Below are positions 1-14,377 of a stretch of DNA of 64,000 bases, one piece after another. A program made the position numbers and the translations under genes. The stretch is taken from the NCBI GenBank assembly GCA_026398615.1, contig JAPLSN010000023.1:1-64000 (forward strand), written 5' to 3'. The DNA is from Spirochaetota bacterium (GTDB lineage: Bacteria > Spirochaetota > Spirochaetia > Treponematales > UBA12059). How positions within the stretch are numbered: position 1 is the stretch's first letter; each line of letters opens with the position of its first letter. Under the pieces are notes generated by a model. The model was given only the letters and a program-made list of their open reading frames with translations, ran no database searches and was not told where the DNA came from.

Positions 1-2136
1 GAAGAGGAGGTTGTTGAGGAGGATCTGGACGGGTGTCATGGGCAGGAAGGGCAGGAAGAGCGAACTGCCGAGCATCGAGAGCATGTTGCCGAAGTTGGAG
101 CTTGCGCCCATCTTGATGTACTTGATGATGTTGTGGAAGACATGCCGGCCTTCGAGGATGCCGTCATCGAGCACGAGGAGGTTTTTCTCCAGGATGATGA
201 TGTCCGCGGATTCCTTGGCCACGTCCACCGCCGAGTCCACCGAGACGCCCACGTCGGCGGCTCGCATCGCGGCGGCGTCGTTGATGCCGTCGCCCATGAA
301 TCCCACGATGTGGCCGGTTCCGCGCAGCGCGAGGACGATCCGCTCCTTCTGGGCAGGCGTCAGGCGCGCGAAGACATCGTGGGTCTCGACCATTCCCGCG
401 AAGGCGGCCGGGTCGAGGGAATCGAGTTTCTTCCCGGTCACGACCTCGATGTCCCTGAAGCCGACTTCCTCGCAGATTGTCGCGGTGACGAGCTCGTTGT
501 CGCCGGTGAGAACCTTCACGCGGACGCCGTGATCGCGGAGCAACGCTATCGCCTTTTCCGCGGAGTCCTTTGGGGGATCGAAGAAGGCGAGGTATCCGAG
601 GAGGACGAGCCCGTTCTCGTCGGATACCGTGAAATTTTCCTTCGAGCTCTCGTACTCACGGTAGGCGATCGCGAGCACGCGGTAGCCGCGGGAAGAAAGC
701 CGCGCGTACTCCTCGAGGATGTCCTGCTTCACGATGTCGATGAGGGGGAGGATCTCGTCGTCGACCTGGTAGCGTTCGCAGACTTCGAATATCGCCTCGA
801 CGGATCCCTTGCAGATGAGGACGTGGTCGTCCTCCCAGTCGACGATGACCGACATACGCTTGCGCGTGAAATCGAACGGGATTTCGTCGACCTTCCGGAG
901 GCTCCGCTCGACGTCGAGGTCCTCGTTCAGGAGGATGGAGTTGTCGAGCAGGTTCCGCAATCCAGTCTGGTAGTACGAGTTCATCCACGCGTAGCGGAGG
1001 ACATCCTCGCTCGTGCGATTCGCCACGTCCACGTGCTTTTCGAGGATGACCCTGTCACGGGTGATGGTTCCCGTCTTGTCCGTGCAGAGGATGTCGATGC
1101 CGCCGAGATTCTGGATGGACTTGAGCTTCTTGACGATCACCTTCTTGCGCGACATGAAGATGGCGCCCTTGGACAGGCAGACGGTCACGATCATGGGGAG
1201 CATGGTGGGCGTGAGCCCGACGGCCACCGAGAGGCCGAAAAGAAGCGCTTCGAGCCAGTTGTGCCTGAGCAGTCCCTGTACCGCGAAGATTATCGCCACC
1301 ATGACGAGCATGAAACCGATCATGAGCCGCACGAAGGACCGGAGGCCGACATCGAACCCGGTGGCTCCCTTGGGCGCGGCGACCTCCCTGGCGACCGATC
1401 CGAGGACCGTCCTCATGCCCGTATTGACCGCGACGCCCCTGGCTGAACCCGAGAGCACGGTCGAGCCCTGGAAGCATGCCGAGGCCAGCTCGAACATGCC
1501 CGAGGCGGACGCGTCGGGGACGGCGAACTTCTCCACCGGCATGGATTCGCCCGTGAGAGCGGACTGCGTGACGAAGCAATCCTTGGCCGAGAGGATGCGC
1601 AGGTCGGCCGGAACGATCGAACCCGCCGCGAGGACGATGATGTCGCCCGGGACCACTTCGCTGATCGGGATCTCGGCCTCCCTGCCTTCGCGGACCACGT
1701 CGGCGCTCGCCTTGACCATCAGGTTGAGCTTTTCCACGGCGTTGCCCGATCGCCGTTCCTGGAACCAGGAGAGGAACACGCTGATGAGGATCATGCCGAC
1801 GATGATGCTCCCCGACGCGATATCGCCTGTCGCGTAGGAGACGGCGCAGATGACGAGGAGTATGGCGACGAGGGGATCCCCGAGGCGCGAAAGCATGTCC
1901 GCGAAGAAACTCTTCCGCTTCTCGCCGGCCAGGACATTGGGCCCGAAGCGCTTCCTTCGATCCTCGACTTCTTCGCCGGAGAGACCTTCGGCACGGGCAT
2001 CGAGAAGCGTGAGCGCCGCCTCGGCAGGCACGGTGCAGGCTTTGCGGAGTTGCCCTTCGTCCGCGGCATTGCCTTTGCGGGTGGTCATCGCTTTCCGTGC
2101 GACGGAAGGCGAAAAGTACCTTGGAAGAAGGGCCAT
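1..2136 (-). CDS. mgtA: Magnesium-translocating P-type ATPase (MgtA/MgtB-like), 3' end outside window
   Basis: The minus-strand frame is open from an ATG at 2136 to the window edge (712 codons; the family is usually 850-900 residues), so the C-terminal membrane segments are missing. It should be an inner-membrane P3B ATPase importing Mg2+ at the cost of ATP. Seen: the phosphorylation motif CTDKTGTITRD with Asp353, an actuator-type TGES (LTGESMPVEKF), the nucleotide-domain element MNSYYQTGLRNLL near residue 385 that is typical of MgtA, and the hinge GDGINDAAAM. The start at 2136 is chosen because GGAGG lies 6 bases upstream; a second in-frame ATG at 2088 is possible. A Ca2+ or other P-type specificity is less likely because of the MgtA-style segment. 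Confidence 0.9.
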   Translation of the reverse strand, partial: MALLPRYFSPSVARKAMTTRKGNAADEGQLRKACTVPAEAALTLLDARAEGLSGEEVEDRRKRFGPNVLAGEKRKSFFADMLSRLGDPLVAILLVICAVSYATGDIASGSIIVGMILISVFLSWFQERRSGNAVEKLNLMVKASADVVREGREAEIPISEVVPGDIIVLAAGSIVPADLRILSAKDCFVTQSALTGESMPVEKFAVPDASASGMFELASACFQGSTVLSGSARGVAVNTGMRTVLGSVAREVAAPKGATGFDVGLRSFVRLMIGFMLVMVAIIFAVQGLLRHNWLEALLFGLSVAVGLTPTMLPMIVTVCLSKGAIFMSRKKVIVKKLKSIQNLGGIDILCTDKTGTITRDRVILEKHVDVANRTSEDVLRYAWMNSYYQTGLRNLLDNSILLNEDLDVERSLRKVDEIPFDFTRKRMSVIVDWEDDHVLICKGSVEAIFEVCERYQVDDEILPLIDIVKQDILEEYARLSSRGYRVLAIAYREYESSKENFTVSDENGLVLLGYLAFFDPPKDSAEKAIALLRDHGVRVKVLTGDNELVTATICEEVGFRDIEVVTGKKLDSLDPAAFAGMVETHDVFARLTPAQKERIVLALRGTGHIVGFMGDGINDAAAMRAADVGVSVDSAVDVAKESADIIILEKNLLVLDDGILEGRHVFHNIIKYIKMGASSNFGNMLSMLGSSLFLPFLPMTPVQILLNNLLF

Positions 2137-2380
2137 GCATGCCTCCGGATCATGCGGTCGAGTTCGGCGCCGCATTCAGCTCTGCCTCGAGCATAGCGCA
2201 TGAAGGGTTCCGGCGAAAGAAGCCTGATGCGGGGATGGTGAATGTGGATGCACCGTGCGCGGAATTTCCGGCGGGAGGGAACGGCGGTGCATGCGAGTTT
2301 CCAAACCTTCCCTGCATGCACCATCCTTTCATCGAGGAGATTGGAGGGATCCATCCCGCAGTCCGGGGAGGTTCGGTTCT

Positions 2381-2857
2381 ATGAAAAGAAACATTCCCGT
2401 GCTTTTCGTCCTGTCGTTCCTGCCCACCCCCATCGCCGCCCGGGACTTCGTCACGCTATGGCGCCTTGACGAGCCCGGCGACCTGGACGGGAACGAGATC
2501 AAGTTGTATTGGAGATACGACGACGACGAAGGACGGGAAGTCGCGATAGTTTCCTTCGACGTCGCATCCCCCTCGCCGGGGATCGACGAGCTGTCGCCAG
2601 GGCTCCACGCGGGGCGCGAACGGGGCTGGAGCGTACTCGAAAAGTCCGACATGCTCATCGATATCGCCGGGCGGGAACCACGCTGCCTGGCCGAACGGCT
2701 GGATCCGGGCCTGCCGGGCGGCACGGAGAAGTTCACGGGGTACATGGACCTGGACAACTTCAACGGGACGCTCCATTCGTTCCTGTTCGTGGATCCCCTG
2801 GACCCGGCGATCGGGTGGACGGGCAAGGAACTGGACGGGCTCATCGGGCAGGAATAA
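2381..2857 (+). CDS. Secreted protein of unknown function, paralogue of the 9624 gene with an internal deletion
   Basis: Not a recognised family. The 158-residue product starts with a signal peptide (MKRNIPVLFVLSFLPTPIAA). It is closely related to the protein at 9624-10214: both share YDDDEGREVAIVSF, VASPSPGIDELS and GYMDLDNF. After the shared FxDPLDPA the sequence jumps to a GWTGKELDGLIGQE-like tail, whereas the paralogue has about 40 more residues before the matching TGKGLDALIRGK tail. The simplest reading is an in-frame internal deletion. The stop lies inside the 3' end of the convergent kinase gene (17-base overlap). A GGGGAGG element precedes the ATG. The upstream region shares the string CATGCAxxATCCTTTC with the paralogue. 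Confidence 0.75.
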   Translation: MKRNIPVLFVLSFLPTPIAARDFVTLWRLDEPGDLDGNEIKLYWRYDDDEGREVAIVSFDVASPSPGIDELSPGLHAGRERGWSVLEKSDMLIDIAGREPRCLAERLDPGLPGGTEKFTGYMDLDNFNGTLHSFLFVDPLDPAIGWTGKELDGLIGQE

Positions 2858-4304
2858 ACCCGGCGGGGGGCTGCGTTCCGCGCGGCAGGCGCACCCACGC
2901 GGCCACCCCGGTCCGCGTGTTGCGGATTCCGCAGGTCCCGCCGTGGGCTTCCACGACGCTCCTGACCACCGCCAGCCCCAGGCCTGAGCCCCCGCTCCCG
3001 CGCGACCGGGAGGCGTCGACACGGTAGAACGGCTCGAACAGGTGCGGCAGGTGCGCGTCGGGCACGGGTTCCCCCGTGTTCTCCACCTCCACGAGCGCCT
3101 CGCCTTCCATCGACGCGACGCTGACCGCGATGGCGCCTCCTTCCGGCGCGTGCCGCAGGCCGTTGGAGAGGAGGTTGTCGACCACCTGCAGTATCCGGTC
3201 GTGGTCGAACCTCGCGGCGATCGGCCCGCGTCCAGTGATGCCAAGCGCCACGCCCTTCTCGCGAGCCGCGTGGGCGAAGCGCGAGACCGCGCGCGACACG
3301 GTGTCGAAGAGGTCGCCCTCGGCCGGCAGGAGGGAACTGCCGGTCCCCCCCAGCGCCGCGATCTGAGCGAGGTCGCGGACGAGGCGGTCCAGGTGGTCCG
3401 CTTCCTTGAGGATCACGTCCGCGAGCTCGTCGCGCTCCGCGTCGGTGCCGTACAAGCCCAGCTGGATGGCCTCGGCGTAGCCGCGCATGAGGCCGACCGG
3501 GGTCTTGAGCTCGTGGGAGGCCCCGGCGATGAAGTCCTCCTGCGCCTTCACTTCCAGCGCCAGGCCGCGGTTGGCGGCGGTCAGCTCCCCGATGTTCCGC
3601 GCGAGCGCGGCGGCCATCGCGTTCAGGCTGTCACCGAGGATCCCGAGCTCGTCGTTCCTCGAGTGCCGGTACCGGGCCGCGAGGTCATTCCCGGCGACGC
3701 GTCGCGCGACCTCCGAAAGCTCCAGGATGGGCCGCGCCATCCTGCCGGAGAGGAGCAGCACGATGCCGAACTCCAGGACGAGCACGAGGGCGCCGACGAG
3801 CAGCAGGAACCTCGAGGCGATCGCCATGTCGCGCCTGAGGCGGTCCAGCGGCTGGGTGACCACGAGGTACCGACCTGGTTCCAGGCGCGCGACCAGCTGG
3901 ATGACGGACTGCCCCCGCGGGTCCGCGTCCAGGATGCCGAACAGCGGCTCCCCGCGCCCGAGCCGCTCCCTGTTCGACGCGAAGTACTCGAGCTGGTCCT
4001 TCGGCAACGGGAAAGCCTGCCCGTCGGTGAACTCCGGGGCCGAGGAGACGCGGACGACGCCGTCCCCGTCGGACACCGTGATCCTGCAGCCCGTGCCCGC
4101 GCCGAGCTCCCTGGCGGTCCGGGAGAGCGAAGGCGCGCCCCCGGGCGACGCCCGCATGGCCGCGAGGATGCGCAGGAATTCGACCTTCGTGCCGGCGGCG
4201 TAGTACGGCTCCAGGAAAAGCGCGTTGGCCGCCATCAGGATGCCGAGGCCACCCGCGAACAGGATCGACGCGCCGACCGTGAGCTTCGCCCGGATGGACG
4301 TCAC
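2841..4304 (-). CDS. Sensor histidine kinase
   Basis: A 487-residue membrane kinase that should autophosphorylate on His264 and pass phosphate to the response regulator encoded just upstream. Order of parts: N-terminal membrane segment (about 10-30), extracytoplasmic sensor of about 140 residues, second membrane segment (about 165-190), HAMP, HisKA with ASHELKTP, then HATPase with the N box DNLLSNGLRHAP and G boxes GSGGSGLGL. The GTG start at 4304 overlaps the stop of the response regulator by four bases (GTGA) and has AGGGGG upstream, so translation is probably coupled. The 3' end overlaps the convergent secreted-protein gene. Signal sensed: unknown; the operon suggests something at the cell surface handled by the phosphoesterase. 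Confidence 0.92.
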   Translation of the reverse strand: MTSIRAKLTVGASILFAGGLGILMAANALFLEPYYAAGTKVEFLRILAAMRASPGGAPSLSRTARELGAGTGCRITVSDGDGVVRVSSAPEFTDGQAFPLPKDQLEYFASNRERLGRGEPLFGILDADPRGQSVIQLVARLEPGRYLVVTQPLDRLRRDMAIASRFLLLVGALVLVLEFGIVLLLSGRMARPILELSEVARRVAGNDLAARYRHSRNDELGILGDSLNAMAAALARNIGELTAANRGLALEVKAQEDFIAGASHELKTPVGLMRGYAEAIQLGLYGTDAERDELADVILKEADHLDRLVRDLAQIAALGGTGSSLLPAEGDLFDTVSRAVSRFAHAAREKGVALGITGRGPIAARFDHDRILQVVDNLLSNGLRHAPEGGAIAVSVASMEGEALVEVENTGEPVPDAHLPHLFEPFYRVDASRSRGSGGSGLGLAVVRSVVEAHGGTCGIRNTRTGVAAWVRLPRGTQPPAGFIPAR

Positions 4305-4978
4305 GGAATCCCCCTGCGGAAGGAATAGCCCACGCCCCTGCACGTGACGACGAGCCCGCCCGCCGGCCCGAGCTTCCGGCGCAGCGACTTGACGTGGGTG
4401 TCCAGCGTCCGCGGGTCGCCTTCGTAGTTCCAGCCCCACACCTGGTCCAGGATGCGCTCGCGGGGGCAGACCGTGTCCATGTTGTCCATCAGGTGTCGCA
4501 GCAGCTCGAACTCGCGGAAGCTCAGGGCGACGGGTTGCCCGTCCGCGGCGACCTCCCTGGTCCCCGTGTCGAGCGTCACGCCGCCGCCGGACAGCACGTC
4601 GGGGGCGGCGGCCCTGGCCCTGCGGAGCAAGGCCCGGACACGCGCGCACAGGAGGTCCCTGCTGAAGGGCTTGGCCAGGTAGTCGTCCGCCCCCGTGTCG
4701 ATCCCGCGTATCTCGTGCGGCTCGTCGCCCAGCGCGGTCAGCATCAGGATGGGCACCCGCGAGAAGGACCTGATGGCCCGGCAGGCGCCCAGCCCGTCCA
4801 TGCCGGGCATCATCATGTCGAGGATCACGAGCGCGGTGTCGGGGCGCCTGCCGAGCGCCTCGAGCGCGGAGCGCCCGTCCCCGGCGGTCAGCACTTCGTA
4901 GCCTTCCCGCTCCAGGAAGAGCTTCACGAGCCGCAGGTAGCGCGGCTCGTCGTCGGCGTAGAGTATCGTGTCGCCCAC
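4301..4978 (-). CDS. OmpR/PhoB-family response regulator
   Basis: The 225-residue product has a receiver domain (acidic pair Asp9-Asp10, phosphoacceptor Asp54 in VILDMMMPGMDG, Lys in YLAKPFS) followed by a winged-helix DNA-binding domain with TLDTHVKSLRRKLG and the terminal GVGYSFRRG strand. It should be phosphorylated by the adjacent kinase and bind promoter DNA. GTG at 4978 is preferred because the protein then begins MGDTILYADDEP like other receivers and GAAGGG lies upstream. A second GTG at 4996 overlaps the phosphoesterase stop (GTGA) and would add six residues. The gene is the third of a four-gene operon. Confidence 0.92.
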   Translation of the reverse strand: MGDTILYADDEPRYLRLVKLFLEREGYEVLTAGDGRSALEALGRRPDTALVILDMMMPGMDGLGACRAIRSFSRVPILMLTALGDEPHEIRGIDTGADDYLAKPFSRDLLCARVRALLRRARAAAPDVLSGGGVTLDTGTREVAADGQPVALSFREFELLRHLMDNMDTVCPRERILDQVWGWNYEGDPRTLDTHVKSLRRKLGPAGGLVVTCRGVGYSFRRGIP

Positions 4979-4992
4979 CGCGCCCGCGCCCT

Positions 4993-7900
4993 TCACGGCT
5001 TCAGGCCGTACGAGTGGACGACCGCGCCGTCGGCGCCCCGGACGAATTCCACCGTGGCCTTGCCCGGCGCCACGGAGACCCGCAGGTAGCCGGGGGAGGG
5101 CAGGAAGGTGCCCGACGAGTAGCCGTATTCCGCGAGGCCCTCGGGCGTGATCCGCTGCGTGTTGCCCAGCGACGGCTGGGGCACGAGCTGGTAGACGACA
5201 CCGTCCTTCTCCTCGCGGGCGTAGAAGTGGTCGTGTCCCCTGAACACGACATCGACCCCGTATTTCACGAAAAGGGCGTGCAGCGGCATGGCCCACCCCG
5301 GCCGTTTCGCCGCGAACAGGTCAGCGCCGTTCCCGTCAGACCCGCCCCATTCGTAGAGGCCGGCCCAGTCCGCGCCGCCCCGGGCGTCCTTGCCGGAGCC
5401 GCCGAGGATGTTGTGGATGAACACGAACCGGTACGCGGCCTTCGACGCCGACAGGACTCCCGCGAGCCAGTCGTACTGCTTCTTCCCCAGCGTCCAGGCC
5501 CAGCTGTCGTCGCCGGGCTTGACCGTCTCGGCGGCATAGGGGTCCAGGACTACGAACAGCGCGTCGCCCCATTCGAAGGCGTACGCCATGTCACTGAGGA
5601 TACTAAAACTATCGGCGGGTGCCGCATTCGGGTCCACGAGCCAGGTCCTGCGCAGCGCGGCCGCCTCGGCGCTCTCAGGCTGTCCTTTCCTGGCCGGCCA
5701 GCCGTGCTCCCCGTCGTGGTTCCCGAGCACCATGAAGAAGGGCAGGGAGGCGCCGACGTCATCCCAGTACGAACGGACCAGCTGGTTGCGCGCCAGGTAC
5801 GAAGCTGCGTCGGTGGCCAGCTTTTCGACCATGGACGTGTCCCCGAGGTCCATCGCGAAGTCCGGCCTGTCGGCGGCCATGCGCGCGAGGGTGGCGGAGT
5901 AGACCGGCTCGCTGGAGTTCTCGTCGAAATGCGGGTCGGCCTCGACAAGGAAGGTGTAGGACGATCCCGCCGCCTTCATCGTCGAAAAACGTCCGGGTTC
6001 GCCGAGCGCGAAGTTCTTCGAGCCGGCTTCCGCCCACTCCAGCCTGAAATGGTACGTGCGCCCCGCCTGCAGTCCCGTGATGGCGTCCCGCGTGACGGTG
6101 CCAGCCTTGGCGCTCCTGGTCAGCGTCGTCCGGTCGAGTTTCGCGGGATCTTCGCCCCACCGGTAGCGGTAGTCGACGGCCTTCGTGAAGGCGGTGGCCA
6201 GCCCCGCGCCCGTCTTTCCCGGATACTCGACCAGCGTACGGGCATGGAGATCGCCGGATGCCGCGATCGTGACGGCCGCGCCGCCGGTCGGAGGCGGCGC
6301 GGCCCCGGCATCCGGCGACCCCTTCCCCTTGGACGCTTCCGTGCCCTTCGGGGCCGCCCTGTCCTTGGGGACCGCGGAAACCGCGCCGGGGTCCTTCTTG
6401 CGCTGCTGCGTAGTGCCGTCGGTCCTTTCCTTGCCGGCTTGCGCCACCGTCGTGCCCGGGGCCGACTGGGCAGGATCGACGACGCCCGCGGCGGGCGGGC
6501 CGCCCGCGGGGATCTCGAAGCGGTAGGCGGGACCCGATGCCGTCCCGTCGGCGGGGCCGTCGCCGTCCAGCCATTCGCGCAGGTATTCCACGACGACCTT
6601 CGAGGGGGAGACCGTGAGCCTGACCCTGCCCGAGTTCGGCAGGATGTCTCCGCTCCTGAACGCGTCCGCGTTGTAGAGCGCGTACGAAGGATCGGCGGGC
6701 TCCGGCAGCGTGATGTAGGCCACGCCGTCCAGCAGCTGGTTGGCGAAGACGTGGTCGTGGCCCTGGACGAAGGCGGTCACCCCGCGCTCCGCCATGAGCT
6801 CGTGGATCGGAGCCTTCCACCCGGGCCGGCGAGCGGCGAACCCGTCCCTGCCGTCCGGGGACTTCCCGCCCCACTCGTAGTACGGCGCCCGCTCGATGCC
6901 GCCGCGCCCGGTGCCCGACACGTGGTGCGCGAAGACGAACTTGAACGTCGCCTTGCTGCCCTCCAGGGTTTTCCGGAACCAGTCGTACTGGGCCCGCCCG
7001 AGCGTCACGTTCCAGAGGTCGCGGGTCTTCTCCCCACCGCCGAAGACGTTGTCCACGGGTTCCTTGGAGTGCCAGTACGGGTCGATGACGACGAACAGTG
7101 CGTCGCCCCAGGTCCACGCGTAGTAGTCGCGCAGGAACCCGACGTGCTCGACCTTCTCCGCGTCGCCTGAGTAGAAGCCGTCCGGGGCGGGCTGGGGGAA
7201 GAGCGCGTTGCGCGCGTTCTGGACCCAGACCGCGACGTTGGCGGCCGTGCCGTCCAGGTTGGCCAGCGACGCCTGCTCGTGGTTCCCGTTGACCAGGAAG
7301 ACCGGCGCGACGCTCCCGACGAGCGAGAGGTAGAGGCGCTGCCGGACGTAGACGGCGTCCACCGCTTCCTTCATGACGGCGTCCAGCGTGTCCACGCTGA
7401 AGTCGTCGCCGATGGTCATGAAGAAATCCGGCGCGTCGGCCGCCGCGCGCCCGAGGTTCCGGACGTACAGCGCGGAGTCGAACTGCTGGGGGCGCTCGGG
7501 ATGCGAGTCCCCGATGATCTCGAAGAAGAACGTCGAGCCGGCGGCCCGCCGCGTCCTCATCCGGCCCGTGGGGCCGGGGGTGAAGGCCGTCTCCCCCGGG
7601 GCTCTCGACTGCAGCCGGTAGCCGTACTCGCGGTCCTGGGCGAGCCCGGTGATCGTGATTTCCGCGCCGGTGCCGGCGGCGAGCCTGGTCGTCCCGGTCT
7701 TCCGGTCGTATGCGCCGCCGGCGGCCCCGTACTCCACGAACACGTCCTGGTCGCGGTTCCCGAGCAGGTTGATCGTCACGGACGTGTCCGTGGGGCGCCC
7801 GAGCATCGCGGACAGCCTCTGGAACGGCTGGACTTCGGCGGGGAAGGGCGCTTCGCGGGAGGGCCCGGGCTTTCCCTTGCCGGTCTGGCCGCCGCCCGGT

Positions 7901-8043
7901 TCCTGGGCCCAGGCTTCGCCGCCGAGGGCCAGCAGCGCCGCAAGCACCGCAAGCGCCAGCAGCGCCGCGCGGACGCTCCGCGCCGACGAAGCGCCGCGCG
8001 CCATCATGGCAAGGGGTTCCGCGGTGGGGGTTCGGTCGTCCAT
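4993..8043 (-). CDS. Secreted double calcineurin-like metallophosphoesterase
   Basis: A 1016-residue exported protein: signal peptide with hydrophobic core at about 25-42 ending GEAWAQ, then two copies of a fibronectin-like N-terminal domain plus calcineurin-like phosphoesterase domain, the layout seen in purple acid phosphatases. Copy 1 has IGDSHPE (Asp179), TIGDD, NGNHE, FAHH and QGHDHVF. Copy 2 has EADPHFDE, LGDTS, LGNHDGE, FIHN and RGHDHFY. The two are joined by a low-complexity Pro/Lys/Ala linker (about 505-575). Both sites keep the metal-binding Asp, His and Asn residues, though the first motif of copy 2 is ADPHF rather than GDxH. Substrate unknown. GGGGAG lies just before the ATG. The gene sits between the LTxxQ protein and the response regulator. 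Confidence 0.85.
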   Translation of the reverse strand: MDDRTPTAEPLAMMARGASSARSVRAALLALAVLAALLALGGEAWAQEPGGGQTGKGKPGPSREAPFPAEVQPFQRLSAMLGRPTDTSVTINLLGNRDQDVFVEYGAAGGAYDRKTGTTRLAAGTGAEITITGLAQDREYGYRLQSRAPGETAFTPGPTGRMRTRRAAGSTFFFEIIGDSHPERPQQFDSALYVRNLGRAAADAPDFFMTIGDDFSVDTLDAVMKEAVDAVYVRQRLYLSLVGSVAPVFLVNGNHEQASLANLDGTAANVAVWVQNARNALFPQPAPDGFYSGDAEKVEHVGFLRDYYAWTWGDALFVVIDPYWHSKEPVDNVFGGGEKTRDLWNVTLGRAQYDWFRKTLEGSKATFKFVFAHHVSGTGRGGIERAPYYEWGGKSPDGRDGFAARRPGWKAPIHELMAERGVTAFVQGHDHVFANQLLDGVAYITLPEPADPSYALYNADAFRSGDILPNSGRVRLTVSPSKVVVEYLREWLDGDGPADGTASGPAYRFEIPAGGPPAAGVVDPAQSAPGTTVAQAGKERTDGTTQQRKKDPGAVSAVPKDRAAPKGTEASKGKGSPDAGAAPPPTGGAAVTIAASGDLHARTLVEYPGKTGAGLATAFTKAVDYRYRWGEDPAKLDRTTLTRSAKAGTVTRDAITGLQAGRTYHFRLEWAEAGSKNFALGEPGRFSTMKAAGSSYTFLVEADPHFDENSSEPVYSATLARMAADRPDFAMDLGDTSMVEKLATDAASYLARNQLVRSYWDDVGASLPFFMVLGNHDGEHGWPARKGQPESAEAAALRRTWLVDPNAAPADSFSILSDMAYAFEWGDALFVVLDPYAAETVKPGDDSWAWTLGKKQYDWLAGVLSASKAAYRFVFIHNILGGSGKDARGGADWAGLYEWGGSDGNGADLFAAKRPGWAMPLHALFVKYGVDVVFRGHDHFYAREEKDGVVYQLVPQPSLGNTQRITPEGLAEYGYSSGTFLPSPGYLRVSVAPGKATVEFVRGADGAVVHSYGLKP

Positions 8044-8063
8044 GGATGGCTCCCCATCCCGCG

Positions 8064-9353
8064 TCACTTCGAGAACAGGAAGGCCGTCTCGAGCGTGACG
8101 GGACCATCCACCGGATCGGCGTAGAGGTAGTACCCGGACGGGAAGATGTCCTGGTTCCTGAGCGTGGCCAGGTCCGCCTTCTGGGCCGCCGTCAGTGTGG
8201 CATGCACCGCGGCGAAGCGGTACGCCATCTGGAAGGACAGCCTTCCGTCGAGTTCGCCGTAACGGCGCGAGAGCGCGGCCACGGCCGCCTCGTTCGCGGA
8301 GACGCCCGACAGGTACTTCCTGAATTCCTTCGAGACCGAGGTGCGGACCGCGAGGATCTCCTGCAGTATCGGGGCGAGGGGCTCCATGATCCCGGTGACG
8401 AGCGCCGCCTGTTCGGGCGTCAGCAAGGCGATGAAGGCCTCGCCAGAGTCCCCGGTCAGGGCGGTGGGGATGAAGTAGTCGGCGTTGCCCATGGCCGGGT
8501 AGTCCTTCATGTAGAAGCCGCCGAAGTAGGTGCCGTGGCGCTCGGGGCAGAAGTAGACGTCGGCCGTCTCGGAACCCGCGTACCAGCTGAAGAACTCGCT
8601 GGCGTAGGTCATGTAGAGCACGTCTTGGCCGTGGGTCATCGTGCGCTTGTCGTACTGGTCGGGGAGGGCCGGCCACGTGCCCGAGTCCCCGAACTTGAGC
8701 CTGGCGATGGCGGTCTTCTGGGCGGCGGTCAGCGTCTTCACGATCTGCCCGTAGACCTGCGCGCGGCGGAAGGCGAGCCTGCCGTCGACTGCGAAGATGT
8801 CCGCCACGCACGCCGTGACGGCCTTTTCCGACAGCCCCGTCGTCCCCGCCGGGCGTTTCCCTTCCATGTTGTCGCGGAACGCCTTGATCAGGACCAGCCG
8901 TTTGCGGCCGAGTTCCGCGAAAAGCGGCTCCTGCTCCCTGGCCAGGGCGAGCAGCAGGGCTTCCTGCTTCGAGTCCAGCATGGCCAGGACGTTGTTGCCG
9001 ATGTTCGTCAGGAACATCATGTTGTGGCCCGCTTCCTTCGCGTCGATGTCGCGCATGTACTGGAAGCCGAAGAAGTCGGCCACCTTGCCGGGAGGCAGGA
9101 AGGTGTCGGCGCCGAACGTGCCGGTCACGAACGCGAGCGCCGAGAAGGCGATCGTGCTGAGCTGGGCCTTGTCCGAGACCGATTGCTCGATGGTGTACAT
9201 TTCCGCCGGGGATTTCGGGGCCGGTGGCGGCTTGCCCTGCCCGGAGCCCGGCCCCGGCTGTTTCTGGGCAAAGGCGCCTTGCGCGGACGCCAGGGCGATG
9301 ACGAGCGCGAGGGCCGCGGCCGTCGTCCGTCCCGTGATTCGGGTCATGGTCAT
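8064..9353 (-). CDS. Secreted LTxxQ-motif protein of unknown function
   Basis: The 429-residue product starts with a signal peptide (MTMTRITGRTTAAALALVIA, ending near GAFAQ), then a Pro-rich stretch and a mostly helical body. Three LTxxQ-like motifs are visible: TLTAAQKTAIARL, LLTPEQAALV and TLTAAQKADLATL. Such motifs occur in periplasmic Spy/CpxP-type proteins and in related helical secreted proteins, but this protein is much longer than Spy and homology is not established. It is the first gene of the operon, with a strong AAGGAG seven bases before the ATG and 20 bases before the phosphoesterase start. It may be a partner or substrate of the phosphoesterase, or part of the envelope signal sensed by the kinase. 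Confidence 0.7.
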   Translation of the reverse strand: MTMTRITGRTTAAALALVIALASAQGAFAQKQPGPGSGQGKPPPAPKSPAEMYTIEQSVSDKAQLSTIAFSALAFVTGTFGADTFLPPGKVADFFGFQYMRDIDAKEAGHNMMFLTNIGNNVLAMLDSKQEALLLALAREQEPLFAELGRKRLVLIKAFRDNMEGKRPAGTTGLSEKAVTACVADIFAVDGRLAFRRAQVYGQIVKTLTAAQKTAIARLKFGDSGTWPALPDQYDKRTMTHGQDVLYMTYASEFFSWYAGSETADVYFCPERHGTYFGGFYMKDYPAMGNADYFIPTALTGDSGEAFIALLTPEQAALVTGIMEPLAPILQEILAVRTSVSKEFRKYLSGVSANEAAVAALSRRYGELDGRLSFQMAYRFAAVHATLTAAQKADLATLRNQDIFPSGYYLYADPVDGPVTLETAFLFSK

Positions 9354-9623
9354 GGTGACGCTCCTTCCGGTCCGTGTTCCGGTATGCGAACCATACGGTA
9401 CATCGCCAATGTGATGGCACCGTGAGAAGAGCGGGAAAATCGCGGCTGGTCCCGGGACCCGTCGTCGTCCCCCGCCGTGGCGGCATGCGATGAACAGTGC
9501 CGCGTACCGGTCCGGAATGCAATGGGTGGGTCGCCCGGGTTTTTCCTGTCGAATCGTGCGGCCATGCACTATCCTTTCCATGGACGGCGATCGACCACAC
9601 GCGGCTCCGGGAGGGTACTTTCC

Positions 9624-10214
9624 ATGAAGAGACATGCAATCGCCATGTTCCTGCTATCGTGCATGGCGGCGTCGGCCGTCGCCGAGGAACCCCGGGTGCT
9701 CTGGCGGCTCGATGCTTCAATGGACGGCCGCAAGGCCGAGATCAATCTGTCCTGGTGGTACGACGACGACGAGGGCAGGGAAGTCGCGATAGTTTCCTTC
9801 GGCGTCGCTTCCCCCTCGCCGGGGATCGACGAGCTGTCGCTGAGCTTCAATGCCGGACGGGAACGCGGGGCCGGCGCCCTCGAGAAAGGCGACCTCCTGA
9901 TCACCGTCTCCGGCCGGACCTGGCACTACCTCGAGGAACGCATCGACCTTCGCCTGCCGAGCGGCACGAAGCGTCTTGGGGGTTACATGGACCTGGACAA
10001 TTTCGACGGCCAGCTCAACTCCTTCCTCTTCGCGGACCCCCTCGATCCCGCGACCGCGAAGGAACTGCTCTCCCTGGCCGATTCACACGTCGTCCGGGTG
10101 CGCGTGTACCTGCGGGACGAGGCTCCCCTGGACCTCGGCGTGCCCGCGGCATTCTTCAGGGAATATCTGGGTCTCACGGGCAAGGGGCTGGATGCACTCA
10201 TCCGCGGCAAGTGA
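9624..10214 (+). CDS. Secreted protein of unknown function, full-length paralogue of the 2381 gene
   Basis: A 196-residue product with signal peptide (MKRHAIAMFLLSCMAASAVA). The body is acidic, with WYDDDEGREVAIVSF, VASPSPGIDELS, GYMDLDNFDG and a C-terminal part (VVRVRVYLRDEAPLDLG, GKGLDALIRGK) that is absent from the copy at 2381. The stretch coding for REVAIVSF and SPSPGIDEL is almost identical in DNA between the two copies, which suggests recent duplication or gene conversion. It is divergent from the phosphoesterase operon, separated by about 270 bases that should hold both promoters. GGGAGGG lies upstream of the ATG. No known domain was recognised. Confidence 0.78.
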   Translation: MKRHAIAMFLLSCMAASAVAEEPRVLWRLDASMDGRKAEINLSWWYDDDEGREVAIVSFGVASPSPGIDELSLSFNAGRERGAGALEKGDLLITVSGRTWHYLEERIDLRLPSGTKRLGGYMDLDNFDGQLNSFLFADPLDPATAKELLSLADSHVVRVRVYLRDEAPLDLGVPAAFFREYLGLTGKGLDALIRGK

Positions 10215-10267
10215 CGGCGGAGTTCCCGCTCCTGTTTCCTCATGAAGGCGTTTCCGACGGTTTCGGC

Positions 10268-10468
10268 ATGACGAAGGCCGGCTTCGCGAAGTACTTCGAC
10301 GGCCTCCTGCGCTCCACCTTCGCCAACCCGCGTGACGTCCTGCACGGATCCCACTACCACTTCTTCGTGCTCCACACCGTTCTCGCCGAACTCACCCTGC
10401 TCGTCCTGCCGTTCTCGAAGGTGGTCTACGCCTTCCTCTCACTGCCGCTCAAAGTCCTGAGGAGAAAC
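10268..10468 (+). pseudogene. C-terminal remnant of a NarI/DsrM-like membrane cytochrome b subunit
   Basis: This frame encodes the end of a quinone-linked membrane subunit: NPRDVLHGSHYHFFVLHT followed by ELTLLVLPFSKVVYAFLSLP. The pattern, a last helix with histidines then a PFSK loop, matches the C-terminus of NarI/DsrM/HmeC-type proteins that pass electrons from menaquinol to a heterodisulfide-reductase-like Fe-S partner. The N-terminal four or so helices are missing, and the frame runs on without its own stop into the next fragment; a TGA in another frame at the expected end (CTGAGGAG) hints at a frameshift. The partner remnant follows at once. Confidence 0.6.
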
Positions 10469-10469
10469 C

Positions 10470-10673
10470 ATGGATTCGGAAATGGGCGCGGCGCTCAAGA
10501 CCCTCTTCGAAACGAAGTTCCACGGCGCGATGCGCATGTACCTGGAAACCTGCTCGCGTTGCGGGCTCTGCGTGAAAGCCTGCCACGTGTATGCGTCCAT
10601 GCCGGAAGCAATGAAGGCCATGGGGAATGTCGCAAAAACTGACGCGAAATCATGCGGAGGTCGTCGTGGATAA
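10470..10673 (+). pseudogene. Truncated HdrD/DsrK-like iron-sulfur protein
   Basis: Sixty-seven codons encode the N-terminus of a 4Fe-4S protein: METCSRCGLC-like motif CSRCGLCVKACHVYASMPEA, with four cysteines spaced as CxxCxxCxxxC. Full-length proteins of this kind (HdrD, DsrK, TmcB) have two clusters and CCG domains over 400 residues or more. Here the frame leaves the family after MPEA and ends within 30 residues. GAGGAG precedes the ATG, so a short peptide could still be made. Together with the preceding remnant it looks like the leftovers of a two-gene menaquinol-thiol oxidoreductase complex. Confidence 0.6.
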
Positions 10674-10825
10674 CCCCGGCATCGGCACGATTGGCTTGCT
10701 CGATCGCTTGGCTTCAGTACAGTGATGGTTTCCCGAGCTTTTCGGGAATACCATCGGTGGAATTCCTGAAAACAGGAAACATTGCGCGCTCCTCGGCGCC
10801 AAGGTCTCACAGGCAACGAAAAGAT

Positions 10826-11140
10826 TCAATTCAAGGGGCACCCCGGGATATGGTCCCCTGAGGATCTCTTCGTCGAAGCGGCAGGATTTTGCGCAGAGGC
10901 CACAGCCGTCGCAGCGTGCTCCGACAGGCGGGGTACTGCAAGTGAAACCGGGGATGCTTTCCCGACGTGGAAAGCCTCGGGGAAATACCCGAAATCGTCG
11001 GGCGCCTCGACGTCGAGATCGACGAGGAGCGTCTTCCGGGAACGGGAGCTCGCGAGGGCGAGATGGGCGGCGATCGTCGTCTTGCCGGTACCGCCCTTGC
11101 CGCTCACGACGGCCATCACCGCCGCGCGAGCGTCGCTCAC
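10826..11140 (-). pseudogene. Frameshifted, truncated MinD-family ATPase with ferredoxin insert
   Basis: The first 50 or so residues are a clear MinD/ParA-type ATPase start: VVSGKGGTGKTTIAAHLALA (deviant Walker A) and LLVDLDVEAPD. The frame then diverges. In the +1 frame, at about 10860-10915, the DNA reads CDGCGLCAKSCRFDEEIL, the ferredoxin insert typical of this ATPase class. A single frameshift near 10915-10960 and loss of everything after the first cluster explain both observations. The ATG at 11140 overlaps the stop of the DUF5320 gene (ATGA), so it was an operon partner. Intact homologues are linked to iron-sulfur or molybdenum cofactor delivery complexes. Confidence 0.72.
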
Positions 11141-11508
11141 TTCACCGCGTCTACGTTCGCCGGGACGTTCTCCCCCGGGGCTTCCCCGCGCAGCAGGGCT
11201 TCGGTGCGGGGAAGTTCGGCACGAAGGAACGCCAGGCGCTCCTCGAGTGCAAGTTGGATATTCGCCGTCACAGCCTCATCGCCGCCTGGGCCATAGCCCA
11301 CGGCGAGCCAGCCCAAGCCCCGACCACGACCCATCCCCATTCCGCGCCCTCGACCGTAGCCGCCGCCGTAGCCCATGCCATATCCGGGACCGAAACCATG
11401 GCCTCGACCGTATCCGGGTCCCATCGCTCGAGCACCGCCGCAGGGACCCAACCCCCTGCCTGTCATCGCTCCAGCCCCATCAGGCCCTGTTCCATTGAAA
11501 TTGGGCAT
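11137..11508 (-). CDS. DUF5320-type Gly/Arg-rich small protein
   Basis: A 123-residue product beginning MPNFNGTGPDGAGAMTGRGL, followed by a long low-complexity Gly/Arg/Tyr/Met stretch (about 25-65) and a C-terminal helix (LALEERLAFLRAELPRTEAL) that looks coiled-coil forming. This layout is that of DUF5320 proteins, which sit beside NifX-type and Mrp/MinD ATPase genes in anaerobes; their role is not known. GGAGG lies 5 bases before the ATG. The next gene in the operon is the frameshifted MinD. Two copies of a candidate operator lie upstream. The longer reading from 11547 lacks a ribosome site and is rejected. Confidence 0.75.
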   Translation of the reverse strand: MPNFNGTGPDGAGAMTGRGLGPCGGARAMGPGYGRGHGFGPGYGMGYGGGYGRGRGMGMGRGRGLGWLAVGYGPGGDEAVTANIQLALEERLAFLRAELPRTEALLRGEAPGENVPANVDAVK

Positions 11509-11568
11509 ATACACCTCCACCTGAAAGAAAGATCGGTAGTGCGCCAACGGCGCACGCTTGCCATAAAT

Positions 11569-11613
11569 AGCATATGCCTATTACGACTCACGCAATAATA
11601 TAAGCATATGCCA
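11569..11613 (-). promoter_or_regulatory. Candidate operator: two AGCATATGCC direct repeats
   Basis: AGCATATGCC occurs at 11569-11578 and again at 11603-11612, 34 bases (about three helical turns) apart, each containing the perfect palindrome GCATATGC. The DNA around them is AT-rich against a GC-rich background. A minus-strand promoter with -35 TTGCGT and -10 TGCTAT (17-base spacing) overlaps the proximal copy. This placement upstream of DUF5320-MinD suggests a repressor or activator site. A related GCATATG string occurs in the leader of the NapH-like gene at about 16692. The cognate regulator is not identified; the DUF134 protein at 14382 is one candidate. Confidence 0.45.
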
Positions 11614-11663
11614 ATAATAATCAAGCCTCATCCGTCTTTCCCGCGGTTTTGGTGGCTCGATCC

Positions 11664-12110
11664 TCAGTCGTACGCGGCGCGGGTCGCTTCGTCCGCGAGC
11701 GTGGCATCCAGGCGCTGCTTCCATTCCGGAGCTTTCCACGTCCCGAGCTTTTCATGGATGGCAAGATACTTGGCGGGGATGGGGTGCGTACCGACGATCA
11801 CGCGAACCCTGTAGCGTTCTTCCATGAAACGGGTAAAGTGATCGATGCTCGGGCAGGGCGGGTACCCGACGAGGAAGCCGGTGGCCAGGTGGATGACCGT
11901 GACGCCGTTCTTGACCATTTCCTCGCCCGCGTACTCGATGTTCCCGCCCGGGCAGCCGCCGCAGCTCGTGAAGCCCGCAAGCTCCACTTCGATGCCCCGG
12001 TAAATCGAAAAGGCGCCTTCGCGATTTCTCAGCGCGCGGAAGCATTTTCCGCCCGCGCAGGTCTTGTAGCGGTCGCAGATAATGATGCCGATTCTCTGTC
12101 TATCGTCCAT
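11664..12110 (-). CDS. CGGC-domain protein
   Basis: A 148-residue cytoplasmic protein with the diagnostic central motif FTSCGGCPGGN, and further cysteines in CDRYKTCAGGKCFRAL and YPPCPSIDHF. CGGC-domain proteins are common in anaerobes and archaea and are thought to bind metal through these cysteines; no reaction is established. GGAGG precedes the ATG at 12110, and a TTGACA (12159-12164, minus strand) is a plausible -35. It is transcribed towards the DUF5320/MinD genes but separated from them by the operator region, so it probably forms its own unit. Confidence 0.8.
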   Translation of the reverse strand: MDDRQRIGIIICDRYKTCAGGKCFRALRNREGAFSIYRGIEVELAGFTSCGGCPGGNIEYAGEEMVKNGVTVIHLATGFLVGYPPCPSIDHFTRFMEERYRVRVIVGTHPIPAKYLAIHEKLGTWKAPEWKQRLDATLADEATRAAYD

Positions 12111-12219
12111 GGAAACCTCCTTAGCTATCCAGAAGACGGTATGCCCTTGATTTGTAATTGTCAAATGCCCAGAAACAGCTTCGGAGTATCGGTGTCCCAC
12201 CTATCCTCCGGAAATTCCA

Positions 12220-12358
12220 GCTTGATATGTCGATACCGGTCGACGCGCCGCGGGAGATCAAGGTCCGCCACATCGGGAATTGCCTCAAGGCCGATCCGGC
12301 CTACGGGAAAGGAACCGCCGACGCACTCGGGATACCGCTTTCGGAAGTGCCCTCGTGA
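12220..12358 (+). pseudogene. C-terminal remnant of a catalase
   Basis: The plus-strand frame ending at the TGA 12356-12358 reads [20 protein letters not shown] and then [16 protein letters not shown]. This matches the last 40 or so residues of haem catalases, where a REI-xx-RQI-xx-xx-KADPxYGxxVAxxLG pattern closes the protein. Nothing upstream continues the family: the preceding DNA is the promoter region of the CGGC gene. It is therefore a gene-end fragment left by deletion or rearrangement. Confidence 0.55.
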
Positions 12359-12403
12359 CGGACGACCCCGCGTGCGGAACCCGGTTCCAGTGCGCGGGGT
12401 TGC

Positions 12404-12613
12404 GTCCAGATCGAGGTGGGAGCCCGGTTCGGCGAGGAGGTAGAGCTCGGGCTCGGCGGCCATCGCGCGCGCGATGGCGAAACGGTGGTACTGACCGCAC
12501 GACAGCTCCTGGATCGCGCGTCGCGCGAGATGGCTATCGGCGAGTACGACCTTGGCCAAGGGAAGGGTCGTATCCTGCACTGTCCCTGCGGCTTCCCCGG
12601 CACATACGTCCAT
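12404..12613 (-). pseudogene. Fragment of an ABC transporter ATPase
   Basis: The minus strand encodes about 70 residues containing QELSCGQYHRFAIARAMAAE, a degenerate ABC signature (normally LSGGQ), then PELYLLAEPGSHLDLDA, a Walker B/D-loop region in which the usual DEPTSHLD has become AEPGSHLD. There is no Walker A upstream and the frame then leaves the family. The altered signature and missing Walker B aspartate show that it is not functional. It abuts the catalase remnant in convergent orientation. Confidence 0.6.
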
Positions 12614-12651
12614 CGCTTGACAGTCCGCTCCCTTCCCTTCATTATGGGCTA

Positions 12652-13470
12652 ATGACTATAACATCTCTCGTGGACGACTATTGCCCGAACCGCGGTTTTC
12701 GCGGCGAACACGGGCTGTCTCTATATATGGAAGCCAACGATACTAAGTTGCTCTTCGATACGGGACAGGGCGACGCCTTTCTCGTCAACGCCCGCACCCT
12801 CGGAATCGACCTGTCAGGGCTCGACGCGGTCGTCCTGAGTCATGGGCACTACGATCACGGCGGCGGGCTCATGGCTCTCTACGGAACTTTCGGAGGACTT
12901 CCCCCGCCTCTCTTCGCGGGGAGAGGTTTCGACGAGCCCAGGCGATCCCGAAGCGAGGGCGGCTACAGGGATATCGGCCTTCCGATTCCGATATTGCCCG
13001 CGCGCGCCCCTGCCGCGATCGTTATTGATGCTTTCGAGGAGCTTGTCCCTGCCGTCTTTTTTCTCCCCCATGCGGAGCGGGTCGACGGGACTGAAGCGAT
13101 GCCCCGTTTCCGGAGGATCGTGGGAGAGGCCGATATGGTCGACGATTTCGACGACGAACTCTCGCTCGTCCTTGACGGGAAGGACGGAATCGTGATCGTG
13201 ACGGGCTGCGCTCATCGGGGCATCCTCAATATCGCCCGCGCGGCGGCGCAAGCCTTTCCCGGCAGACCGGTGAAGGCCTTGGTCGGCGGTTTCCATCTCA
13301 TCGACGCGTCGGATGCCGTTCTCTCCCAGGTCGCGCGGGATATCGCGGCACTCGAGCCTGGATTTGTTCTATGCGCTCACTGCACTGGCCTCAGGGGCTA
13401 CGCGGCTCTCTCGGAAACGGTTCCCGGGGAAGTCTCCTGGCTTTCCTGCGGTATGAGTATTTCTCTATAG
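12652..13470 (+). CDS. MBL-fold metallohydrolase (dihydropterin synthase-like COG1237 type)
   Basis: The 272-residue product has the metallo-beta-lactamase signature SHGHYDHGGG at about residues 61-70 (here the variant HGHYDH), an upstream LLFDTGQG, and distal metal ligands in VTGCAHRGI and GGFHLI, ending with CAHCTG. This is the subfamily annotated as 7,8-dihydropterin-6-methyl-4-(beta-ribofuranosyl)-aminobenzene-5'-phosphate synthase in methanogens; in bacteria the substrate is not established. It lies directly before an Mrp ATPase and a NifX-like protein, a common trio in anaerobes. The ATG at 12652 is chosen because the protein then begins at the first beta strand; no strong ribosome site is visible. 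Confidence 0.8.
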   Translation: MTITSLVDDYCPNRGFRGEHGLSLYMEANDTKLLFDTGQGDAFLVNARTLGIDLSGLDAVVLSHGHYDHGGGLMALYGTFGGLPPPLFAGRGFDEPRRSRSEGGYRDIGLPIPILPARAPAAIVIDAFEELVPAVFFLPHAERVDGTEAMPRFRRIVGEADMVDDFDDELSLVLDGKDGIVIVTGCAHRGILNIARAAAQAFPGRPVKALVGGFHLIDASDAVLSQVARDIAALEPGFVLCAHCTGLRGYAALSETVPGEVSWLSCGMSISL

Positions 13471-13483
13471 ATAGGAGTCTATC

Positions 13484-14377
13484 GTGGATCTCGTTCCGGA
13501 AAAGAAGCGCAATCCCAGGATCAAGCGCGTCATCGGCGTCATGAGCGGCAAGGGCGGCGTCGGTAAATCCACCGTCGCCGTCCTCCTCGCACAATCCCTT
13601 GCGGTCCAAGGCAGGAGTGTCGGAGTCCTCGACGCCGACATCACGGGGCCGAGCCTTCCCAGGCTCCTCGGGGTCGATTCCTTCAGGGCCGAATCCGACG
13701 GTCATGTGCTTTTCCCCATCGTCAATGAGGATGGCCTCAAGGTCCTATCCATCAACCTCCTCGGCGAGAACGAGGAGGAGCCCGTCATTTGGCGCGGTCC
13801 CCTGCTCGGGAAGGCGATCGAGCAGTTCTGGGGCGACACCGACTGGGGCGAGCTCGACTACCTCATCGTCGACTTCCCTCCAGGCACGTCGGACATCGCC
13901 CTGACCGCTTTCCAGACCATACCCTTCGCGGGGGTCGTCGTCGTCGGAACGCCTCAGGACTACGTCTCCATGATCGTGATGAAGTCGGTGAAGATGGCCG
14001 GGATGCTCAAGGCTCCGGTCCTCGGCATCGTCGAGAACATGCGAACGATGGTCTGCCCCTCCTGCGGCGAGGAAGTGAAGCTCTTTGACGACGGGGGGGG
14101 CGGGAGCGCAAGGCGCCTGGGGATTCCCCTCATCGCGAGCTTTCCCTGGCGCAAGGAGGTGGCGCAAGCCCGCTCCATCCGCTGGAGCGAGCTACCCGAG
14201 GCGGTGCGGAAGGACGCCGACCGTATTGCGGGCGGGGTTGAACTCGCCCTCGCCGCGAGCGCTTCCTCCCGTTCGGGTGTGGACAGGGAGCCCGAATCGG
14301 TGCATAGCCCCGGCGGCTGCGAGTGCGGCACGGGTCCCTGTTGCGAGTCCTGCGCCGATTCGCCCTCGGCCCGGTAG
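13484..14377 (+). CDS. Mrp/NBP35-family iron-sulfur carrier ATPase
   Basis: The 297-residue product has the deviant Walker A VMSGKGGVGKSTVAVLLAQ, DADITGPSLPRLLG, Walker B YLIVDFPPGTSD, a CxxC pair in MVCPSCGEEVKLF that would bridge a shared cluster in a dimer, and a cysteine-rich C-terminal tail with CECGTGPCCESC. Mrp/NBP35 proteins hold and transfer Fe-S clusters using ATP. The start is GTG at 13484, with AGGAG upstream. It lies 13 bases after the MBL gene and 4 bases before the DUF134-NifX gene, so all three are probably one operon. Confidence 0.9.
   Translation: MDLVPEKKRNPRIKRVIGVMSGKGGVGKSTVAVLLAQSLAVQGRSVGVLDADITGPSLPRLLGVDSFRAESDGHVLFPIVNEDGLKVLSINLLGENEEEPVIWRGPLLGKAIEQFWGDTDWGELDYLIVDFPPGTSDIALTAFQTIPFAGVVVVGTPQDYVSMIVMKSVKMAGMLKAPVLGIVENMRTMVCPSCGEEVKLFDDGGGGSARRLGIPLIASFPWRKEVAQARSIRWSELPEAVRKDADRIAGGVELALAASASSRSGVDREPESVHSPGGCECGTGPCCESCADSPSAR

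Follow-up and report, generated by a model that had tools for sequence, protein, structure and literature searches.

A four-gene spirochaete locus linking an exported LTxxQ protein and a double metallophosphoesterase to a two-component system

The 64,000-nucleotide stretch of Spirochaetota bacterium DNA analysed here (contig JAPLSN010000023.1, referred to at its full length as the window) carries four consecutive genes on its minus strand, encoding an LTxxQ-family protein, a 1016-residue protein with two metallophosphoesterase (MPE) units, an OmpR-type response regulator (RR) and a sensor histidine kinase (HK), in that order (Table 1). The first two products carry signal sequences. A gap of 20 bases separates the LTxxQ gene from the double-MPE gene, while at both the MPE/RR and the RR/HK junction the stop codon of one gene is shared with the start codon of the next in a GTGA overlap that couples the two translationally. 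A sequence-only reading of this DNA had placed the four genes on one strand in this order with four-base overlaps among the last three, all of which we confirmed; the range that it gave (4301-9353) takes in the LTxxQ, MPE and RR genes but leaves the kinase gene outside. The arrangement supports the prediction that the four genes form a single operon with two secreted products and a linked two-component system (TCS).

Table 1. Features of the locus, with positions in the window
Feature	Position	Strand	Remarks
LTxxQ-family secreted protein	8064..9353	-	429 aa, Sec-type signal, all-helical, internal duplication
Secreted double MPE	4993..8043	-	1016 aa; start may instead be the ATG at codon 13 or 14
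MPE unit A	6529..7863	-	Fn3-like N-domain and MPE; orthologous to free-standing MPE-A genes
MPE unit B	4996..6333	-	Fn3/PhoD_N-like domain and MPE; B-type half, long branch
OmpR/PhoB-type response regulator	4301..4996	-	231 aa, GTG start overlapping MPE stop
Sensor histidine kinase, two transmembrane segments	2841..4304	-	487 aa, GTG start overlapping RR stop
Divergent intergenic region, presumed operon promoter	9354..9623	-	
Flanking gene F1, small secreted protein, unknown family	2381..2854	+	3' end overlaps kinase 3' end, opposite strand
Flanking gene F2, F1 paralogue	9624..10214	+	59% identical to F1

The LTxxQ label is weak for the window protein itself, which scores 12.4 bits against PF07813 where the gathering cutoff is 24.3. 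We keep it as a probable assignment, since among the 49 aligned members of the family PF07813 is matched at E<=0.1 by 42 (best 3.3e-12) and Metal_resist by 27. The protein contains an internal duplication (29% identity, E 2e-15) in which each half closes with an LTxxQ hairpin, the first-half segment ADTFLPPGKVADFFGFQYMRD corresponding to ADVYFCPERHGTYFGGFYMKD in the second half, and it also bears the conserved segment CPERHGTYFGGFYMKD. An AlphaFold2 model of the protein is all-helical and confident (pLDDT 87.5, pTM 0.85), and a fold search of the PDB with this model gave no match below E 0.1 (best E 0.1). A phage origin was rejected, as the protein had no phage match.

The second product gives two matches to the calcineurin-like family Metallophos (PF00149, E 1.4e-17), and in both halves the five metal-binding motifs D-x-H, GD, GNH(E/D), H and GHxH are intact. 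The claim of the sequence-only reading that both domains are complete therefore holds at every metal-binding residue. Across the wider family all eight metal-ligand positions are conserved in 32/32 A-labelled and 41-42/42 B-labelled domains, which argues for selection for catalysis, and we infer that the double MPE is enzymatically active. The two halves of the window protein are 33% identical to each other. In Candidatus Chlorohelix allophototropha, where the MPEs are separate genes, the first bears the signatures of the window first half (GDSHPERPQQFD) and the second those of the second half. In a tree of 74 MPE domains the A clade is supported at 100/99 and the other B-type domains fall outside it, the window B half lying on a long branch. 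Fused A-B proteins from spirochaetes, Clostridia and Verrucomicrobia occupy separate places in this tree, so fusion has occurred more than once. By these sequence comparisons the double MPE is a fusion of two ancient paralogues that elsewhere exist as separate genes, a point that goes beyond the sequence-only reading. No close relative of the MPE was found in 58 related genomes.

The RR consists of Response_reg and Trans_reg_C domains and has orthologues 72-74% identical in the two closest loci; the host genome encodes only four OmpR-family regulators. The kinase combines HAMP, HisKA and HATPase_c domains with two transmembrane segments that flank an extracytoplasmic sensor domain of ~125 aa (about aa 30-158). 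This domain is PAS/PDC-like in the AlphaFold2 model of the kinase (pLDDT 86.1), and its best PDB fold match is the extracellular domain of YycG/WalK (E 1.1e-4). In 58 related genomes the sensor half had no close relative, the best matches being 25-39% identical over short stretches.

A scan of GTDB genomes returned 136 relatives of the LTxxQ protein, while none of 392 other genomes in the phylum has a member of the family. The locus counts given below refer to the best 80 of these 136, with neighbours counted up to 6.5 kb from the main LTxxQ gene. Among the sources of these 80 are Spirochaetota, Bacteroidota, Verrucomicrobiota/Lentisphaerota, Planctomycetota, Chloroflexota, Bacillota, Desulfobacterota, Acidobacteriota, Armatimonadota, Omnitrophota, Elusimicrobiota and a Methanofastidiosum metagenome-assembled genome (MAG), taxa being taken from record titles, many of them MAG contigs, so that single labels may be wrong. 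Relatives of the gene set are spread over roughly a dozen phyla of bacteria.

The closest relatives reproduce the window operon in different states of completeness. In the spirochaete MAG USSF_metabat.37 one contig (L020/L104) carries the LTxxQ gene and a fused MPE(A-B), and a second (L116) carries the C-terminal end of MPE-B followed by an RR (74% identical) and an HK (58%), which would be the same operon split by a contig break. In BP5.bin40 (L019) the order is LTxxQ-RR-HK, and the 217-bp gap between the LTxxQ and RR genes holds a 23-aa remnant of MPE-A, 87% identical, at 5032-5100; unless this is an assembly error, the ancestor had an MPE there that has since been deleted. A more distant version is found on replicon NZ_CP128401.1 of Chlorohelix, where RR-HK-LTxxQ-PEBP-MPE_A-MPE_B lie in a row on one strand (PEBP, phosphatidylethanolamine-binding protein). 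The search for the four-gene order that the sequence-only reading had proposed therefore recovered it in a second spirochaete MAG and, in varied forms, in several other phyla, which argues that the set is more than a chance grouping. The refuting condition set by the sequence-only reading, that in related genomes the kinase-regulator pair usually occurs apart from the secreted genes, was not borne out: besides the lack of close relatives of the sensor half, the two genomes whose kinase is ~58% identical have either the secreted genes themselves or what is left of them.

All-against-all clustering of the neighbouring genes identified LTxxQ, MPE, PEBP, HK and RR as the frequent recurrent families. 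An MPE lies near the LTxxQ gene in 46/80 loci, a PEBP in 20/80 and a regulator of any kind in 40/80 (OmpR-type TCS 31/80, ECF (extracytoplasmic function) sigma 6/80, LytTR 4/80), and 25 of the 80 have both an MPE and a regulator. Within the same loci OmpR-type RRs are denser within 4 kb of the core than farther out (47/Mb vs 11/Mb), and HK genes number 28 near the core vs 2 far from it. Gene fusions also occur, in the combinations LTxxQ-PEBP, PEBP-MPE and LTxxQ-MPE-MPE. From this sequence survey the secreted set is widespread and PEBP is often a third secreted partner, neither of which was visible to the sequence-only reading. The window shares the LTxxQ gene with adjacent MPE A and B, while PF01161, the PEBP family, is absent from the host genome.

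The regulator associated with these genes varies between lineages. Spirochaetes, Chloroflexi and Clostridia have the window-type kinase, with an FLExYY N-terminus, the kinases of Verrucomicrobia and Deltaproteobacteria are different ones, and Bacteroidales loci use a LytTR-type TCS. At L024:5323-6758 and L058:4680-6394, and weakly at L098, an ECF sigma factor and a Metal_resist/LTXXQ protein lie inside the LTxxQ/MPE cluster, with an additional zf-HC2 protein at L058; in L024 and L058 this pair occupies the position that the TCS has in other lineages.

Several loci contain further genes. In Clostridium magnum (L027:6408-9750) the kinase and LTxxQ genes are separated by three others, one of them for a family 2 glycosyltransferase. 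Three cluster-linked kinases (L088:6714-8618, L095:6479-8200 and L082:2828-4369) have a Cys-containing, presumably extracytoplasmic, N-terminal segment of the form ACxGKxxG...GxC that matches no Pfam family. An ArsP-type permease is found near the cluster at L018:5973-7019, L026:9592-10644, L056:3971-4927 and L116:6466-7482; two of these four loci are from Chloroheliales, and in L116 an ACR3 arsenite transporter adjoins ArsP. In a Verrucomicrobia-related class (L152-L181) MPE-B lies beside sulfatases, which are common, as well as PEBP, YHYH and arylsulfotransferase-like proteins, and LTxxQ is absent from most of these loci.

In the window the operon is bracketed by the paralogues F1 and F2 in direct orientation. 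Neither has a Pfam or NCBIfam match, and no other copy was found in the host genome or in 58 relatives. The G+C content of the operon is 66-72%, compared with 64%. A Mg2+-translocating P-type ATPase (TIGR01524, over cutoff) is encoded on the same strand at 1-2175 (-), separated from the operon by the opposite-strand F1. Upstream of the LTxxQ gene no sigma-70 consensus was found. A direct repeat, ACCGGAA-N5-ACCGGAA, with 12-bp spacing just upstream of the LTxxQ start was considered as an RR box and rejected as not above chance; it is not common to two related upstream regions. No RNA element was detected in 1-14000, and a defence-system identity was rejected as there was no PADLOC hit.

With moderate confidence we favour a reading of the locus as a self-regulated secretion operon that was acquired horizontally, a local form of a widespread module of LTxxQ and MPE A/B, often with PEBP, under an envelope-sensing regulator. 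The PAS/PDC-like extracytoplasmic domain of the kinase would detect an envelope or extracellular condition and the kinase would phosphorylate the OmpR-type regulator, which would then activate the promoter that precedes the LTxxQ gene. Of the two exported products, the double MPE would hydrolyse extracytoplasmic phosphoesters and constitute the output. The secreted parts are most simply seen as output because they stay while the sensor type changes between lineages. The sequence-only reading had offered two roles, and for this reason the phosphoesterase as output fits better, while sensing of an MPE product by the kinase gained no support here. Being exported and co-encoded with a TCS, the LTxxQ protein shares the genetic context of CpxP/ZraP-type accessory proteins and by analogy is likely to be a partner of that kind. 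It could act in feedback on the kinase, as the CpxP/ZraP analogy would allow, or as a chaperone or ligand presenter for the enzymes; it may also be part of a complex with them, an option favoured by the fusion proteins. Both the direction of regulation and the LTxxQ role are what we infer from these patterns.

Several results weigh against this picture. The CpxP/ZraP analogy relies on motif-level similarity and gene context, and the full LTxxQ fold is without a PDB match. About half of the LTxxQ loci have no regulator within 6.5 kb, although some contigs are short. The divergence of LTxxQ and HK is correlated (r 0.88 over 11 loci), matching expectation for a co-travelling unit, but this is partly driven by three spirochaete-type loci. 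Of 31 LTxxQ genomes tested, for the most part ones that lack an adjacent MPE, 20 lack any MPE of the family. A reverse search starting from MPE-A gave MPE hits in 34/384 genomes of one Verrucomicrobia-related class, and at 30 inspected loci LTxxQ was near the MPE in 3, PEBP in 12 and an RR in 7. An exclusive LTxxQ-MPE pairing was rejected on this count; the MPE is instead part of a less tightly linked group, made up of exported esterases and of binding proteins, in which LTxxQ is one frequent partner.

A broader proposal, which we put forward tentatively, is that the duplicated, new-fold LTxxQ protein and the paired phosphoesterases assemble with PEBP into a single exported complex, which would process a phosphorylated ligand of the envelope or the extracellular space. 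Its sensor, TCS or ECF, would be exchangeable between lineages, and the whole would be a previously undescribed system of roughly a dozen phyla.

It is unlikely, in our assessment, that the locus is a metal or metalloid stress operon, in which the LTxxQ protein, as kin to the Metal_resist/ZraP/CnrX types, would bind metal and modulate the kinase while the MPEs served as metal-dependent secondary effectors. The Metal_resist matches in the family and the ECF sigma-Metal_resist pairs that replace the TCS in some loci speak for this, as do the ArsP-type and ACR3 transporters and the Mg2+ ATPase. ArsP is however limited to four loci and ACR3 to one, the ATPase is cut off from the operon by a gene on the opposite strand and was observed at none of the other loci, and the conserved LTxxQ segment has no obvious multi-His/Cys metal cluster.

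Improbable too is a phosphate-scavenging circuit in which the kinase would respond to phosphate or some other product set free by the MPE, or to the absence of that product, in a Pho-type feedback loop. At profile level the MPE units do show a resemblance to PhoD and to purple acid phosphatases, and the best NCBIfam models are PhoB for the RR and PnpS for the HK. Both proteins nevertheless score well short of the cutoffs for PhoB and PhoR (188.4 vs 296.2 bits and 152.3 vs 334.2 bits, respectively), on which grounds membership of the Pho regulon (PhoBR) was rejected. In addition, the recurrent neighbours showed neither pst nor phoU, nor a gene for a phosphate transporter, the type of regulator differs between lineages, and the sensor fold is nearest WalK/YycG. 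That the TCS and the secreted genes have no functional link and merely co-travel as an acquired island is very doubtful, since the absence of the operon from relatives, its G+C content and the gene duplication that brackets it are set against the GTGA overlaps, the second spirochaete with the same order and the recurrent association of regulators in several phyla.

The locus is real, conserved and apparently undescribed and, on the reading of a self-regulated secretion operon, a variant of the theme of an exported LTxxQ protein with an envelope sensor, with an unusual enzymatic output. In open-access full-text literature we found no description of such a gene set, in agreement with the sequence-only reading. 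Three families of exported proteins that are common but seldom connected, LTxxQ, calcineurin-like phosphoesterase and PEBP, would be joined in one recurrent regulated unit, and the natural gene fusions make their joint function directly testable. Bacterial PEBPs and secreted MPEs mostly lack assigned roles, and the clusters and fusions in which they occur together suggest that they have a ligand in common. The CpxP/ZraP theme would also be extended to many phyla and three regulator classes.

CpxP and ZraP are periplasmic regulators of their own kinases (PMC10848872). The CpxP-CpxAR and ZraP-ZraSR systems of E. coli likewise encode an LTxxQ-type exported protein beside a TCS. In contrast to CpxP and ZraP, the window LTxxQ protein is 429 aa long, is internally duplicated and has a conserved segment of its own, and its gene heads an operon with a double phosphoesterase. 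The NCBIfam models of neither system reach cutoff in the window operon, and identity with a Cpx or Zra system proper was rejected since the cutoffs for CpxR, CpxA and ZraS lie far above the scores of the RR and HK. Cnr-type ECF sigma systems combine a Metal_resist periplasmic sensor with a metal efflux pump as output. Some loci of the present family resemble them in pairing an ECF sigma factor with a Metal_resist protein beside LTxxQ/MPE genes, whereas the window uses a TCS and the predicted output is a set of extracytoplasmic phosphoesterases instead of an efflux pump. The MPE units share with purple acid phosphatases and PhoD (PF16656, PF09423) an Fn3-like N-domain followed by a calcineurin-like domain, and give profile matches to purple acid phosphatase structures; this kinship is at profile level only, the matches to both families being below Pfam cutoffs. 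Purple acid phosphatases have a DxG motif I and a GDxxY tyrosine ligand. The window units differ in having D-x-H as motif I, in lacking the purple tyrosine in motif II (A, GDSH/GDDFS; B, ADPH/GDTSM) and in being fused, and a purple acid phosphatase identity was rejected on this motif mismatch. A further parallel is the Chlorohelix cluster, which is not annotated as a system and contains the same families on one strand, but with A and B as separate genes, a PEBP gene added and the TCS ahead of the LTxxQ gene.

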